From Desulfobaccales bacterium (GTDB taxonomy: Bacteria > Desulfobacterota > Desulfobaccia > Desulfobaccales > 0-14-0-80-60-11): a stretch of DNA of 45,893 nucleotides. The translations under genes were made by a program, and so were the position numbers. The stretch lies in NCBI GenBank assembly GCA_037481655.1, contig JBBFLF010000016.1, forward strand, positions 13,955 to 59,847, in the 5' to 3' direction. Positions 7,469 to 23,535 of this stretch are shown piece after piece. The notes under the pieces were generated by a model that ran no database searches, was not told where the DNA came from, and saw only the letters and a list, made by a program, of their open reading frames with translations. Position 1 is the stretch's first letter, and each line of letters opens with the position of its first letter.

Positions 7469-9064
7469 TCAAGGTTCCCTGGCCCAGGACCAGGTGTGCG
7501 GGTCTGACAAAAGGCCCAGAAGGGAAGGCCTCAGGCCCTTCAGATCCTGGTGGGCCAGATAGAGGCTGTCGAGATGGTAGAGGAAGACCCCGGGCGGATC
7601 CTCCCGCATCACTTCCTGGATCTGCCAGTACATGGCCCGCCGGGCCGAAAGCTCCAGGGTCCGCCGGGCCTTCTCCAGAAGCTCATCCACCCGCGGGTTA
7701 TGGTAGGAGAGAAAATTCCACTTGCCCTCCCCGGTCTTGGAGGAGTGCCAGACATTGTAGAGGTCCGGGTCGGGGAGGTAATGGCGGTGCAGGAGCACCA
7801 GGTCGAATTCCTTCCGGGCGATGGCCCGGTAGCGGAAGGAGAGCCACTCATAGGTCTCAATCTTCACGGGGATGCCGAGCCGCTGGAGCTGGGACTGGAT
7901 GATCTGCGCGGTGAGGGCATTCTCCCGGCTCTCAATATGGGTCACCAGGCGCAGGGGCGGCTGGCCGGCGGCCGTCCACCCCAGGGCGGCCAGTTCCTGC
8001 CGGGCGGCCTCGGGATCATACTCCGGGGCGGCAGGCGCCTCCGGGGAGAACCAGGCGCCGGGAGGGTAGGGGCCGGCGGCGGGCTGGGCCCACCCCTGCC
8101 ACACCGCGTTGATGATGGCCTGCCGGTCGATGGCCCGGGACAATGCCCGGCGCACCCGGGGGTCCTGCAGGCGGGCTTCCCGGCAGTTGAAGCCCAGAAG
8201 GCCATAGCGCCCGGCAGGGCAGCGGTAGAGGCGCAACGGGCCCAGCCCCTGGCGCCCCCGGCTCAGGGTGAGATATTGCGTGGGAGTCACTTCCAGGAAG
8301 TCCAAGCGGCCGGCCCGGAGCTCCATTAGGGCGGTGACCGGGTCGGGATGGATGCTCAGGATCAGGGTGCGGATGGCCGGAGGGCCGCCATGGTACTCGG
8401 GGAAGGCCTCCAGCACCAGGCGCTGGCCGGCCAGCCACTCCTTGACCCGATAAGGTCCGGTGCCCGGCGGGGTGCGGCTGTGGGTGAGCTCCTCCCGCTC
8501 CTTAGGGGTCCGGGGCCGGGGCAAAAGCCCGAAGGTCCAGCTTTCGAGGCCGGAGGAATACACCTCCTCATAGCGTACCACCACTGTCTGCGGGTCAAGG
8601 GCCTGCACTTCCCGGACCGGACCGAAGTGGCTGAGGTGCGGGGTGGGAAGGGTGCCGGAGGTGAGGAGCTCATAGGTGAAGACCACGTCCTCGGCCCGGA
8701 ACTCCCGGCCGTCATGCCAGCGCACCCCGGCCTTGAGGCGGAAGCGGATCTCCCGGCCGCCGTCCCGGATCTCCCAGGCCTCCGCCAGGTCCGGAGCGGC
8801 CTTAAGTTCCGGGGTCAGGCGCACCAGCCCGGGGTTGGTCCAGGCGCTGACGGTGTAGGACACCTGATCGGTGAGAAAGAGGGGATTGAGGGTGGCGGGC
8901 TCGGCAGTGAGCCCGAGGACCACCGTGTCGGCGCGAGGTGCCGGGGGCGGAGATGTGCATCCCGCCACCACCGCCAGGAGGAGAGCCGCCCCATACAGCC
9001 AGGCTCGCAGGCGAAGGACAGGGTGCCTGGTTTTGTCTCCCCCCTCCTGCGGTCCCTTGGCCAT
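7469..9064 (-). CDS. Solute-binding lipoprotein (ABC family 5, peptide/nickel type)
   Basis: A 531-residue extracytoplasmic binding protein of the SBP_bac_5 family (OppA/DppA/NikA-like). The N-terminus has a hydrophobic stretch ending in a lipobox VAGC, with the lipidated cysteine at C36. Family features include VVLGLTAEPATLNPL, PDLAEAWEIRDGGREIRFRL, GVRWHDGREF and GTGPYRV. Ligands in the family are oligopeptides, nickel chelates or heme; the sequence alone does not choose. The ATG lies two bases after the TonB-receptor stop, so translation is probably coupled. No ABC permease or ATPase gene follows, which is unusual. The TonB receptor and methyltransferase upstream suggest uptake of a scarce chelate. 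Confidence 0.9.
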   Translation of the reverse strand: MAKGPQEGGDKTRHPVLRLRAWLYGAALLLAVVAGCTSPPPAPRADTVVLGLTAEPATLNPLFLTDQVSYTVSAWTNPGLVRLTPELKAAPDLAEAWEIRDGGREIRFRLKAGVRWHDGREFRAEDVVFTYELLTSGTLPTPHLSHFGPVREVQALDPQTVVVRYEEVYSSGLESWTFGLLPRPRTPKEREELTHSRTPPGTGPYRVKEWLAGQRLVLEAFPEYHGGPPAIRTLILSIHPDPVTALMELRAGRLDFLEVTPTQYLTLSRGRQGLGPLRLYRCPAGRYGLLGFNCREARLQDPRVRRALSRAIDRQAIINAVWQGWAQPAAGPYPPGAWFSPEAPAAPEYDPEAARQELAALGWTAAGQPPLRLVTHIESRENALTAQIIQSQLQRLGIPVKIETYEWLSFRYRAIARKEFDLVLLHRHYLPDPDLYNVWHSSKTGEGKWNFLSYHNPRVDELLEKARRTLELSARRAMYWQIQEVMREDPPGVFLYHLDSLYLAHQDLKGLRPSLLGLLSDPHTWSWAREP

Positions 9065-9066
9065 CC

Positions 9067-11211
9067 TCAGTATTTTAATTTGAGACCGCCGCCCACGGTG
9101 AAGGGCGCGGCCCGGTAGCCGAAACGCTCCTGATAGCGTTCATCCGTCAGGTTATGCAGAAAGCCATACAACTCCACGTGTTCCCGCCCCCGTAAGCGGA
9201 TGGGCACGGAGCCTTCCAGGTCCAGAGTAACGTAAGCCGGCTGGCGCCGCACCCGCAGGTCGGTGTTGAACAGGGTGTTATTGTTGTAAATGACCTTCTG
9301 GTCGGAGACAAAACTGAGATACAGGGCAATTTTCTCGTTATATTTCCCTTTATATTGAATGCCGGCATTGATTTTATGGGCCGGCAGGGCCGGGACTTCC
9401 TTAAAACCACGATCCTGGGGGACCACAAAACGGTCCACCAGGGGATCGCCCGACACCCGGCTCTTCTGGAAGGTGTAATTGGCGAAGACGGTGAAACCCC
9501 AGGGCAGTTTGTGGGAGGCCTCCAGTTCAATGCCGTAGATGATGGCCCGGTCAATATTGTAGGAGACAAAATTGATCAGATCGAAATGAATGAAATCATT
9601 GATATAGTAAAAGTAGGGAGAGACCCCCAGCATGGTCTTGCCCCGCCAGTTATACTTGACGCCGCCTTGCAGGAGGAGGCCGTCCTCTTTTTTGAGGGGC
9701 AGGCGGCTGAAGACGTCGGCAAAATCGCTGTCCTGGGTGAAGTGCCAGTAATACTCCGGCGGGGTGGCCAGCCTTAAGGCCCGGGCCACGCTAAGATAGG
9801 CCAGGCTGTCCTCCCCCAGGAGATAAGTGAGTTTCAGGGAAGGGGACACCCCTTCCTGGGTCAGGTCCTGGCGGATGAGGTCCGGGGCGGCCCGCCCGGC
9901 CGGGCCGGGGGTGGCCTCCAGCCGGGAATAGCGCAACCCTGGGGTGAGGATCAGCTTGTCGGTGAGCTTCCAGTCGTCCATGAGATAGACGCCCAGGACC
10001 CGGGAATTGACATAGTTGCCGTTCTGGCGGACGAACCCGGGCCGGAAATAGCGGTAATCGTCGGGGAAGAGCTTGTCGCCCCGGTCCAGGAAGCGGCAGT
10101 AATCCACCCCCAGGGTAAAGGTGTGCGGCCCCCAGGGGTGACGGTAACGGCCGTCGAAACCGTAGGAATCATCGTCGAAAAAGGTCTTGTGAAACACCCG
10201 CCCCAGGGCGGCCCGGGTGTTGTAAGCTTCCCGCTGGCCGTAATTCTTCCAGAACCGGGCCTGAAAGAGGCCCTGGAGGATCTTTTGCTCGTAGTTCACA
10301 TCGAAAATCACCCGCTCCTTGGTCCAGAAGCTCCCAGGTTCCGGATAGGCCCCCATGCCGCCGTACATGATATCCCCGTCGGAGGCCGGAAAGTTTGGGT
10401 TGCGGGGGCTGTCGTAGAGGGGCGAGTCATAGTCCTTGCTCAGGCGGTTGTTCACCAGAAAGCCCTTGGTGATGGAGAGGAGCTGGACGTTGGCGAACAG
10501 CTTCCCCTGCCAGGGGAGATTCAGGCCGCTATAGAAATTGAGATTCTTGATGCGGAAGCGGCCGTTATACAGATAACCGTCGCTGGAGGCGTAGCCGCCG
10601 CTGACGGCATACTCAAAAGGGCCGGATTGCGGCCGCCAACCGTGGTAAAAGTTGACAGAGGCGGTATCGAAGCGGGCCAGCCCGGTTTGCAGCTCGAACC
10701 GGGGCTGGGGGGTGGGCTTTTTGGTCACCAGGTTGATCACCCCGCCCAGGGTGTTGCCGTAGCGCGGGTCACTCACCCCCTTGATGAGCTCGATGCGCTC
10801 GATATTGTTCAAGGGGATGGTGGTCCAGTCAATGAAGTGGCCTCCAGCGGTGCCCGGAGTATTCAGGGGCCGGCCGTCGATGGTCACCAGGATCCGCCGG
10901 GCCCCGAAGCCCCGGATGCGGATGGAGTCGTCATCCAAGGCGCCCCCCACCTCCTGGAGCCGCTGCACATCCACCCCCGGGAGGCGCTTCAAGGCGCCGT
11001 CCAAAGTGGTGCCCAACCCCTGGAGGAGGACCTCCGGCTTGATCACCGTCATATTGGGGGTTTCAATGTTGCTTTGCAGTTCCCTCTCGGTGATCTCCAG
11101 CTCCTGCAGCAGGAAGAGTTCCGGGACCTTCTTCCCGGGGTCTTCCTCCGCCCCTGCCGCCACGCCACTGAGAACCGCCAGCGCCATCCAGAGATAGCCC
11201 AGTCTCTTCAT
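9067..11211 (-). CDS. TonB-dependent outer-membrane receptor
   Basis: A 714-residue outer-membrane transporter that uses TonB energy to import a large or scarce ligand. A signal peptide ends near AGA at residue 21. The plug domain (about 35-145) contains LKRLPGVDVQ, SIRIRGFGARRILVTIDGRP and GGVINLVTKKP. The rest is a 22-strand-type barrel ending PFTVGGGLKLKY with the terminal aromatic residue expected for BAM recognition. I chose the ATG at 11211 because AGAGG precedes it and a normal signal peptide follows; an in-frame start at 11238 is possible. The start lies 149 bp inside the upstream methyltransferase frame. The ligand could be a siderophore, cobalamin or nickel/cobalt chelate; no cobalamin riboswitch precedes it. 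Confidence 0.95.
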   Translation of the reverse strand: MKRLGYLWMALAVLSGVAAGAEEDPGKKVPELFLLQELEITERELQSNIETPNMTVIKPEVLLQGLGTTLDGALKRLPGVDVQRLQEVGGALDDDSIRIRGFGARRILVTIDGRPLNTPGTAGGHFIDWTTIPLNNIERIELIKGVSDPRYGNTLGGVINLVTKKPTPQPRFELQTGLARFDTASVNFYHGWRPQSGPFEYAVSGGYASSDGYLYNGRFRIKNLNFYSGLNLPWQGKLFANVQLLSITKGFLVNNRLSKDYDSPLYDSPRNPNFPASDGDIMYGGMGAYPEPGSFWTKERVIFDVNYEQKILQGLFQARFWKNYGQREAYNTRAALGRVFHKTFFDDDSYGFDGRYRHPWGPHTFTLGVDYCRFLDRGDKLFPDDYRYFRPGFVRQNGNYVNSRVLGVYLMDDWKLTDKLILTPGLRYSRLEATPGPAGRAAPDLIRQDLTQEGVSPSLKLTYLLGEDSLAYLSVARALRLATPPEYYWHFTQDSDFADVFSRLPLKKEDGLLLQGGVKYNWRGKTMLGVSPYFYYINDFIHFDLINFVSYNIDRAIIYGIELEASHKLPWGFTVFANYTFQKSRVSGDPLVDRFVVPQDRGFKEVPALPAHKINAGIQYKGKYNEKIALYLSFVSDQKVIYNNNTLFNTDLRVRRQPAYVTLDLEGSVPIRLRGREHVELYGFLHNLTDERYQERFGYRAAPFTVGGGLKLKY

Positions 11212-12007
11212 AGCCAGCCTCTTCGGGACGGTCGACATCCTCTCTGTCCCACCAGAAAATCCCCACCCGGGCCGTATCCGGAAGCCACCAGCGGCCCTGA
11301 TGGAAAACCAGACGCCGCCTCAGGTCCGCCACCTCCCCCGGGGTGGGCGGGCGTCTCAGCCGGTGGCGCAGATGCGCCGCCACCTCCCCCAGGTGGCGGT
11401 AAACGTAGGAGCTCTCCGTGCGGTAAAACCGGAGACGGCTCAAGCGGTAGCCCGCCGTGCCTGCCGGCTTAAGGAGCCGGGGCCAACTCACCTCGCTGAT
11501 GACGCAGACATGCCGGGGCGCGCCGGCAAAGAGTTTCCGGAAGGCCGCCTCAAAGCCGCTGCTGCAGACCTGCAGACTGTTGCAGGCCAGGATGAGGTCG
11601 TACCCCGCAACGTCCGTGAGCGGCAGGTCCTCCCAGGGACGGACCTCCACCTGCCGGGGTGCCAGGCCCCGGCGCCGGCTTTCCTCCCGCAGCAGGCCTT
11701 GCATGCCCCGGCAAGGCTCCAGGGCGGTCACTCGACAGCCCCGCGCCTCCAAGGGCAGGGCCAGGACGCCATTTCCCGCCCCCACATCCAGCACCCGCCA
11801 GCCCGGCCGCACCCGAGGGAATAGAAAGCTCAGGATGGGCCGGTGGTAGTCATTGTGGGCCAGCCACAGGCGGTGCCAGCGGACCTGGCCCTCCCAATAA
11901 GCCAGGTCCCGGATATGGGCCGGGAGGGCCTCCGCCCGTCGGACCCTGGATCTTGGGCCGGGGTGGTCAACTGCCGTCAGCTTGTGCACAGGGACAGAAA
12001 GCCGCAT
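11063..12007 (-). CDS. Class I SAM-dependent methyltransferase
   Basis: A 314-residue protein with a Rossmann-type methyltransferase core: motif I RVLDVGAGNGVLALPL near residues 70-85, motif II VTALEP, and a motif IV-like DLILACNSLQVC. The substrate is unknown. The ATG at 12007 (or TTG at 12010) lies only a few bases downstream of an intrinsic terminator and has no visible Shine-Dalgarno site, so expression probably depends on readthrough of the leader RNA. The last ~50 residues are Gly/Arg-rich and overlap the TonB-receptor start in another frame. They look like read-through of non-native sequence, so a frameshift or lost stop near 11240 is possible. Context suggests modification of a compound taken up through the receptor. 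Confidence 0.8.
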   Translation of the reverse strand: MRLSVPVHKLTAVDHPGPRSRVRRAEALPAHIRDLAYWEGQVRWHRLWLAHNDYHRPILSFLFPRVRPGWRVLDVGAGNGVLALPLEARGCRVTALEPCRGMQGLLREESRRRGLAPRQVEVRPWEDLPLTDVAGYDLILACNSLQVCSSGFEAAFRKLFAGAPRHVCVISEVSWPRLLKPAGTAGYRLSRLRFYRTESSYVYRHLGEVAAHLRHRLRRPPTPGEVADLRRRLVFHQGRWWLPDTARVGIFWWDREDVDRPEEAGYEETGLSLDGAGGSQWRGGRGGGRPREEGPGTLPAAGAGDHREGTAKQH

Positions 12008-12011
12008 CAAG

Positions 12012-12056
12012 AAAAAAAGCCATGAAAGCCGCGTGCGTCGCAGCAGCCTTCATGGC
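12012..12056 (-). terminator. Intrinsic terminator at the end of the structured RNA
   Basis: On the minus strand GCCATGAA pairs with TTCATGGC (12049-12056 with 12019-12026), and further G-C pairs can form inside. A run of seven Ts (A at 12012-12018 on plus) follows directly. It stands five bases before the methyltransferase ATG, so it would block that operon unless readthrough occurs. Confidence 0.8.
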
Positions 12057-12200
12057 TTGGGTAATCGTGGTATTACTCAGCCCATGGGGCTGAGGGGGCC
12101 GCTTACTTTTAGCGAGCGGCCTGTCATTTCTTCTGAACGCGCCGGCTTTTCAGGCCCGGCGCCGGGGTTCATCCCGCGTTGACCGCCACCATAGCGGGAT
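12012..12200 (-). ncRNA. Structured RNA / leader of unknown class
   Basis: Read on the minus strand, this gap folds into serial hairpins. They are CCCGC/GCGGG at the 5' end, a two-part stem at 12134-12171, GGCCGCT/AGCGGCC at 12097-12121, CTCAGCCC/GGGCTGAG at 12076-12094, GTAAT/ATTAC at 12061-12076, and a terminator at 12012-12056. The loop of the second hairpin (GGCCTG) can also pair with CAGGCC just before the third, a pseudoknot or alternative pairing. It sits between the RND operon terminator and the methyltransferase start. It could be a riboswitch-type leader or a free small RNA. I cannot match it to a known class from memory. Confidence 0.6.
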
Positions 12201-12238
12201 TTGCCCCCACTGTCAAGCGAAAGAAGAGGGGGAAAGAG

Positions 12239-22360: not shown

Positions 22361-22374
22361 GTGGTGTCACATCG

Positions 22375-22534
22375 TTCGGGTGCCCAGATAGGGCATAATA
22401 GGGAAGCCGGTGCAAGTCCGGCACGGTCCCGCCGCTGTGACCGGGGACGAACCCTGCACGATGCCACTGTCCACCCTCAGGGGATGGGAAGGCGCAGGGG
22501 GAGGAGGATCCGGGAGTCAGAAGACCTGCCCGAA
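22375..22534 (+). promoter_or_regulatory. Cobalamin riboswitch aptamer
   Basis: All the conserved parts are readable: a closing stem TTCGGG (22375) with CCCGAA (22529), AATAGGGAAGCCGGTGCAAG, GGTCCCGCCGCTGTGA, CCACTG, GGGAAGGCGC, and the B12 box GAGTCAGAAGACCTGCC. These match the adenosylcobalamin-type aptamer. Binding of cobalamin is expected to reduce expression of the downstream cobaltochelatase gene through the terminator at 22604-22642. Confidence 0.95.
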
Positions 22535-22579
22535 CACCGGCCGGCGTCGCTACGCGGCATAGCGGACGCCCGGCATACG

Positions 22580-22662: not shown

Positions 22663-23535
22663 ATGGGCCAGAAACAGAGGACATGGCGTTGGATGCTGGC
22701 GGCGGCGATGCTGACGGTCTTTGCGGCTCTTCAGGCAAATGCGGCGGACAAACCGGTCATCGTGCTCACCGCCTTCGGGACCACCACCGAGGCCTTCGCC
22801 ACCTATGACCATTTTGAGAAGAAGGTGCGGGAGCGCTTCCCGGGCTACGAGCTCCGCTGGGCCTTCACCTCCCACAAGGTGCGCCACAAAGTGGCCAAGG
22901 AGCAGAGCCGGGAGCTCAAGGACCTGGGCACGGTGCTCAAAGAGCTCAAGGCCCAGGGCCACAGCCGGGTGGCCATCCAGTCCCTGCACATCGTTCCCGG
23001 GGAGGAATGGGAGAAAAAGATCGTGGCGGTGGTGCGGGAGGTGCCGGGGCTGAAGGCGGCTTTGGGGAAGCCGCTGTTGAGCAGCCAGCAGGATATGGAG
23101 CGGGCCCTGAAGGCGGTGGCCGCCACTTTCCCGCCCAAGGACGGCAAGACCGCGGTCCTCCTCATGGCCCACGGCAGCCCGGTGCCCCCGGGCGAGAAGG
23201 CCTACGTGAGCTTTGCCCGGCTCCTGCACTCCCGTTATCCCCATGCCTTCCTCGCCTCGGTGGAGGGCAAGCCCGAGGCCAAGGAGGCCTTTGCGGCGGT
23301 GAAGAAGGCCAATCCGGAAAAGGTGGTGCTCATGCCCTTCATGTTTGTGGCCGGGGACCACGTGCAGAACGATCTCCTGGGGGAGGAGCCCGACAGCTGG
23401 AAGAATCAGCTCCTCAAGCAGAAGGCTTACCAGATCGAAGGGGTGACCAAAGGGCTGGGCTACAACGACGGCATTGTCAATATCTTCCTGGACCATCTGG
23501 CCCAGGCGCTCAAGGAAGCGGAGGGGAAGAAATGA
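22663..23535 (+). CDS. cbiK: Periplasmic sirohydrochlorin cobaltochelatase
   Basis: A 290-residue anaerobic cobaltochelatase, CbiK type, which inserts Co2+ into sirohydrochlorin in cobalamin synthesis. It carries a signal peptide (basic start, hydrophobic core 11-23, cut after ANA at residue 27), so it is exported. Conserved metal-site residues include H170 in LLMAHGSP and H233 in VAGDHVQND, with a glutamate in SVEGKPE. A periplasmic CbiK is known from Desulfovibrio vulgaris and may handle iron, heme or tetrapyrroles rather than making B12 directly. The gene is controlled by the cobalamin riboswitch. Its stop overlaps the next small gene by four bases. The ribosome site is AAGGAGGACAGG. Confidence 0.95.
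   Translation: MGQKQRTWRWMLAAAMLTVFAALQANAADKPVIVLTAFGTTTEAFATYDHFEKKVRERFPGYELRWAFTSHKVRHKVAKEQSRELKDLGTVLKELKAQGHSRVAIQSLHIVPGEEWEKKIVAVVREVPGLKAALGKPLLSSQQDMERALKAVAATFPPKDGKTAVLLMAHGSPVPPGEKAYVSFARLLHSRYPHAFLASVEGKPEAKEAFAAVKKANPEKVVLMPFMFVAGDHVQNDLLGEEPDSWKNQLLKQKAYQIEGVTKGLGYNDGIVNIFLDHLAQALKEAEGKK

Follow-up and report, generated by a model that had tools for sequence, protein, structure and literature searches.

The leader preceding the methyltransferase operon described here, from a Desulfobaccales bacterium, is probably a protein-dependent antitermination switch for nickel (or nickel/cobalt) uptake, with DUF3842 as its most likely regulator. The RNA structure and the regulon are both well supported. 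The key feature, overlooked in the first-pass annotation of the window (the whole 45,893-nucleotide stretch of DNA analyzed), is that the 5' arm of the intrinsic terminator doubles as an alternative hairpin, P2. The wider proposal, in which DUF3842 would represent a family of nickel-responsive RNA-binding antiterminators that replaces the non-homologous NikR in many anaerobes and acts on a previously undescribed class of tandem-hairpin RNAs governing entire nickel/cobalt uptake regulons, is about evenly balanced between being right and being wrong. The features of the leader and its operon are collected in Table 1.

Table 1. Features of the leader and the downstream operon, in window coordinates.
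Feature	Position	Strand	Evidence or remark
Sigma-70 promoter, TTGACA-17-TATGGT	12188..12216	-	Sequence scan; 1 found vs. 0.1 expected
P1 hairpin, CGGG-AUGAA-CCC(C)G	12163..12176	-	Loop of NNGNA type
Extra hairpin	12162-12139	-	Lineage-specific; outside conserved core
Extra hairpin	12121-12097	-	Lineage-specific; outside conserved core
Extra hairpin	12094-12076	-	Lineage-specific; outside conserved core
Extra hairpin	12076-12061	-	Lineage-specific; outside conserved core
P2 antiterminator hairpin, AGCC-AUGAA-GGCU, identical with the terminator 5' arm	12045..12057	-	Covariation, folding
Possible P3 hairpin, GCG-ACGCA-CGC, at the terminator apex	12031..12041	-	Apical NGNA-type loops in homologous sites
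Intrinsic terminator, strong	12012..12058	-	Match to model R1 at 12014-12059, 49.1 bits
Class I methyltransferase, first operon gene	11063..12010	-	Pfam Methyltransf_25
TonB-dependent receptor	9067..11238	-	Profile evidence
SBP_bac_5 solute-binding protein resembling NikA/OppA	7469..9064	-	Pfam SBP_bac_5

Much of the first-pass description of the leader was borne out. It had been proposed to be a transcription unit of its own, and it has its own promoter, from whose position transcription is predicted to start at ~12181 on the minus strand, while the RND operon upstream has a separate terminator-like site at 12257-12244. The series of at least five consecutive minus-strand hairpins reported there is present in full (12176-12061), and it does end in an intrinsic terminator just ahead of the methyltransferase, the frame of which starts with TTG or ATG at 12010 or 12007 (minus strand) and, as described, shows no Shine-Dalgarno sequence. 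The 231-nt leader yielded a folding z-score of -4.84, with none of 200 shuffled sequences equally stable. On the other hand, the multi-hairpin and pseudoknotted body is not supported as the functional core; what is conserved is P2 together with a second hairpin with an NGNA loop. The extra hairpins were rejected as part of this core, since most other sites have P1 approximately 10-90 nt from P2 without them. As for the pseudoknot suggested between a GGCCTG loop and a later CAGGCC, the complementary segments do exist (12156-12147 and 12123-12116), but CAGGCC is absent from L002, the sole full-length homologue found (77% identity), leaving the pairing unsupported.

Besides this homologue, a first search of 99 genomes, comprising the window's own and its relatives, gave eight short matches, seven of which cover only the terminator, come from different genera and, in most cases, have their own promoter and leader (a similarity in the promoter region of L010 was judged to be due to chance). 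The sequence common to the terminator matches is GCCAYGAAGGC...RGCYTTCRTGGCTTTT. A pattern scan of 84,980 species genomes returned 104 matching stretches, nearly all of them from anaerobes (Desulfobacterota, Nitrospirota, Desulfotomaculia and other Bacillota, Treponema, and Synergistes). A covariance model restricted to the terminator, R1, revealed variants in two phyla; as it was built from pattern-selected sequences, selection accounts in part for its invariant positions, but not for its covarying ones. The element occurs in Desulfobacterota, Nitrospirota, Bacillota, Spirochaetota, and Synergistota, and a TTGAC-type promoter precedes 59 of the 78 model-found copies, compared with 1-6 in shuffles. 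At three loci (L242:931-1191, L249:945-1056, and L248:1425-1539), two tandem copies were detected before one operon or locus, which suggests graded or double control.

Comparison among sites indicates that P2 is selected as a hairpin in its own right. Its stem appears as AGCC/GGCU, GGCC/GGCC, GGCC/GGUC, GACC/GGUC, or AACC/GGUU, and pairs 4:14 and 3:15 covary across 110 distinct model-found sites from two phyla (GC/GU/AU counts of 66/22/15 and 37/12/29, respectively), with 0 of 5000 shuffles scoring as high and slid-partner controls remaining empty. The terminator alone fails to explain this association, because the covarying positions pair with different bases there. No covariation signal was obtained for the outer P2 pairs in the pattern-selected set, partly because the pattern had fixed letters, and the test was redone on model matches. 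While the stems covary, the loop is fixed as A-N-G-R-A (ACGAA in 64 of the 110 sites, AUGAA in 34, and AGGAA and ACGGA in 4 each); its second base is free to vary, with matching changes in the terminator 3' arm (CG to UA). When transcripts truncated ahead of the 3' arm were folded in silico, 93 of 106 contained P2, as opposed to 1 of 106 at full length; for the window, the P2 pair probability drops from 0.88 to 0.0 once the 3' arm has been made. The features of a terminator/antiterminator leader are therefore all found, namely a conserved alternative structure, its mutual exclusion with an intrinsic terminator, and compensatory changes; the last, which the first-pass annotation had recommended looking for in homologous loci, are present in the P2 stem.

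These data bear directly on whether the sites are just ordinary conserved terminators, or a repeat that has spread, without any switching role. The first searches were indeed seeded by sequence, and some weak model matches (L301 and L304) were plain terminators and were dropped. However, the covariation of P2 is independent of the terminator, and the promoter, the partner hairpins, the coherent regulon, and the DUF3842/NikR pattern described below all argue against such an explanation, which is very improbable and already contradicted by covariation and regulon. A mobile repeat is unlikely, as stems differ between sites with pairing kept.

A second hairpin, whose loop is of the NGNA or NNGNA type, usually accompanies P2, either upstream of it (P1) or at the terminator apex (P3). 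P1 was found in 53 of 101 leaders and in only 3 of 97 control regions, its loops being mostly of 4-5 nt, and an apical NGNA-type loop was present in 51 of 101 sites. One or the other exists in 87 of the 101 pattern-found sites. Neither was detected under strict criteria in the remaining 14 nor in 27 of 79 model-found sites, and in the window the P1 hairpin, ~105 nt away from P2, is short-stemmed; these points count against a protein-dependent switch. Three of four permuted loop motifs were at background level, and the fourth, ANGN, which overlaps loops such as AUGAA, was partly raised. Mutual substitution of P1 and P3 is not claimed: although the two were negatively associated among pattern-found sites (p 6e-4), model-found sites did not reproduce this. 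The hairpins differ greatly among sites in their arrangement (P1+P2 or P2+P3) and separation (10 to >100 nt), and no complementarity between their loops was found.

Both of these last observations weigh against a riboswitch, an option already considered in the first-pass annotation. Under this alternative, the tandem loops would bind Ni2+, Co2+, or a related metabolite directly, much as in the two-hairpin guanidine-II riboswitch, and DUF3842 would just belong to the nickel regulon. Such a model would be consistent with the terminator switch, the small conserved loops, the metal-uptake regulon, and the occurrence of the element in several phyla. Nevertheless, P2 formation would give the ON state, the opposite of what is expected if an importer responds to its own metal, and the co-occurrence of DUF3842 and the exclusion of NikR would require another cause; a riboswitch is thus unlikely and comes second to regulation by a protein. 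Known riboswitch classes were ruled out by the search with Rfam 15 covariance models, in which the window leader matched no family, in agreement with the earlier failure to assign it to the NiCo, Moco, cobalamin, or SAM classes. For the NiCo riboswitch (RF02683), no match was obtained in the window at the gathering score or up to E = 10, and none among 34 homologous loci; the Rfam search gave no match to guanidine-II (mini-ykkC) either.

Regarding the genes controlled, all matches of the SBP_bac_5 protein of the window operon to NCBIfam nickel and oligopeptide binding-protein models were below cut-offs. The methyltransferase and TonB receptor frames overlap by up to ~175 bases (11063-11238, minus strand), and the true start or end of one of them may differ from the ORF call. 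The element occurs at least four times in the window's genome, with R1 matches just before cbiM (C11:92333), two before a TonB-receptor/BtuF/FecCD/ABC operon and another before the exbB gene of that operon (C34), and one before a TonB receptor (C32) whose neighbors include FmdE-type and SBP_bac_5-like proteins. The window also contains a cobalamin riboswitch (RF00174, 124 bits) at 22361-22547 on the plus strand, with a CbiK-like cobaltochelatase carrying a signal peptide, as read from the sequence, downstream of it (22663-23535, plus strand). Because the cobalamin riboswitch precedes this chelatase, cobalt/B12 control seems to be separate, which favors nickel as the signal of the leader here.

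Across genomes, the first downstream genes (n = 154) include 28 encoding CbiM/NikM, 30 encoding proteins with TonB plugs, 10 encoding DUF4198 (NikK-like) proteins, approximately 10 encoding methyltransferase domains, and 6 encoding DUF3842; others code for ExbB, TonB, FecCD, periplasmic binding proteins, CobN, FmdE, and CooT. That the RNA element precedes nickel/cobalt uptake genes is well supported, and the earlier view of a regulatory leader linked to metal and matching no Rfam family stands, the link being to uptake. At locus L310, the motif is followed by a gene for a CooC-like protein (CODH nickel-insertion ATPase), named from its sequence and not from a profile search. The genome concerned (G429, second phylum; L305-L310) has 13 model matches, ten of them within ~42 kb, which precede NikA/B/C-like transporters, radical-SAM proteins, ABC transporters, and the CooC-like ATPase and make up a very large metal regulon. 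A flavin-reductase-like protein is encoded near the motif in two phyla (L244:2468-3208 and L305:7085-7699).

The distribution of the motif (E up to 1e-5), DUF3842, and NikR was compared in 98 genomes of the home phylum. The motif is present in 25 of them, and DUF3842 was found in 24 of these 25 versus 13 of the 73 others, or, counted by family, in 14 of 15 motif families versus 5 of 39 others; since the genomes, many of which are MAGs, are related, exact p-values overstate such associations. DUF3842 also accompanies the motif in 48 of the 50 motif genomes of the wider scan and, in the second phylum, in 22 of 27 motif genomes versus 29 of 74 others. Motif genomes lacking it, which count against DUF3842 as the regulator, include G087 and G365, as well as G319 and G328, whose assemblies are perhaps incomplete. 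In the window's genome, DUF3842 is encoded at L192 (G000:C11:2699-3082), on the same contig as cbiM and ~90 kb away. NikR, detected in 49 of the 98 genomes, is absent from the window's genome and occurs in 4 of the 50 motif genomes, only 2 of these being strong matches. Both proteins coincide in 2 of the 98 genomes compared with 18.5 expected, and these two, G100 and G132, have the motif, whereas G065, from the same family, has NikR alone, with neither motif nor DUF3842. At L134, L138, and L142, loci from NikR-bearing genomes, GTAACAC/GTAGCAC-like repeats resembling the published deltaproteobacterial NikR operator are found before cbiM/nikM instead of the RNA element. An ANTAR protein (PF03861) was rejected as partner: it is present in 17 of the 50 motif genomes and lacking in 33, and the P2 loops are not hexaloops.

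DUF3842 (PF12953) is a protein of ~140 residues with a predicted single Rossmann-like domain (pLDDT 77.6), for which solved-structure and fold searches returned only the generic Rossmann fold and no specific or RNA-binding relative; nothing on it or on the leader RNA was found in open-licence papers. Its gene immediately follows the motif in L019, L074, L080, L107, and L312, which supports a connection between the protein and the element but also fits a role as target instead of regulator; this possibility and the plain fold count against DUF3842 as the regulator. Both points would be accounted for if some other protein bound the antiterminator and DUF3842 were a regulated protein of nickel metabolism from bacteria of the same lifestyle, the more so as the co-occurrence analysis covered three protein families only (NikR, ANTAR, and DUF3842). 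However, within the one family that also has NikR, DUF3842 still goes along with the motif (G100 and G132 versus G065), and we consider the involvement of another protein quite unlikely.

In the antitermination mechanism that we favor, transcription would produce P1 and then P2. If P2 were left unheld, the finished 3' arm would invade it, the terminator would form, and transcription would stop. A regulator bound to the tandem NGNA-type loops (P1+P2 or P2+P3) would instead hold P2 and prevent termination, allowing the methyltransferase/TonB/NikA-like operon to be read. This regulator, most likely DUF3842, would act when nickel is scarce, because the genes under control import nickel. We infer DUF3842 as the RNA-binding partner, nickel as the signal, and ON as the bound state.

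NikR was found in less than half of the organisms with NikABCDE, from which NikR-independent control was inferred (Zhang et al., 2009; PMC2667541). The element together with DUF3842 provides a concrete and testable candidate for such control. If true, a function would be assigned to a widespread DUF and a widespread RNA class beyond Rfam would be added; the supply of nickel would be connected with the CODH and hydrogenase metabolism of sulfate reducers, as well as of Thermodesulfovibrio-like bacteria, anaerobic Bacillota, and treponemes; and uncharacterized TonB receptors, binding proteins, and methyltransferases would become predictable as nickel/cobalt-chelate uptake genes.

Several known systems share traits with the element. 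Like it, the NiCo (czcD) riboswitch links RNA control to nickel and cobalt; however, this riboswitch controls efflux genes and differs in architecture, whereas the leader element precedes uptake genes and has no Rfam match to it. In guanidine-II RNAs, too, a variable linker joins two small hairpins that have similar loops, but an Rfam match and two ACGR loops, which would indicate membership, are both lacking: the element has NGNA/NNGNA loops without loop-loop complementarity and is associated with metal-uptake genes. A closer likeness exists with the targets of ANTAR proteins (EutV/NasR/AmiR), where two small hairpins have conserved loop letters, the second overlaps the 5' arm of an intrinsic terminator, and binding would hold the antiterminator (PMC3369931). 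The leader element shares the exclusion between second hairpin and terminator. By contrast, ANTAR target RNAs consist of dual hairpins with hexanucleotide loops in which the first base is A and the fourth is G (PMC3369931), and neither these hexaloops nor the accompanying ANTAR protein in the genome characterizes the element, whose loops are NGNA/NNGNA (A-N-G-R-A in P2), whose linkers are far more variable, and which controls nickel/cobalt uptake instead of nitrogen metabolism. Finally, NikR controls nickel uptake of the nikMNQO/NikABCDE type in Desulfobacterota (PMC545781), the role that the RNA element seems to fill, but it acts on DNA and is rarely found in genomes that have DUF3842 and the motif.
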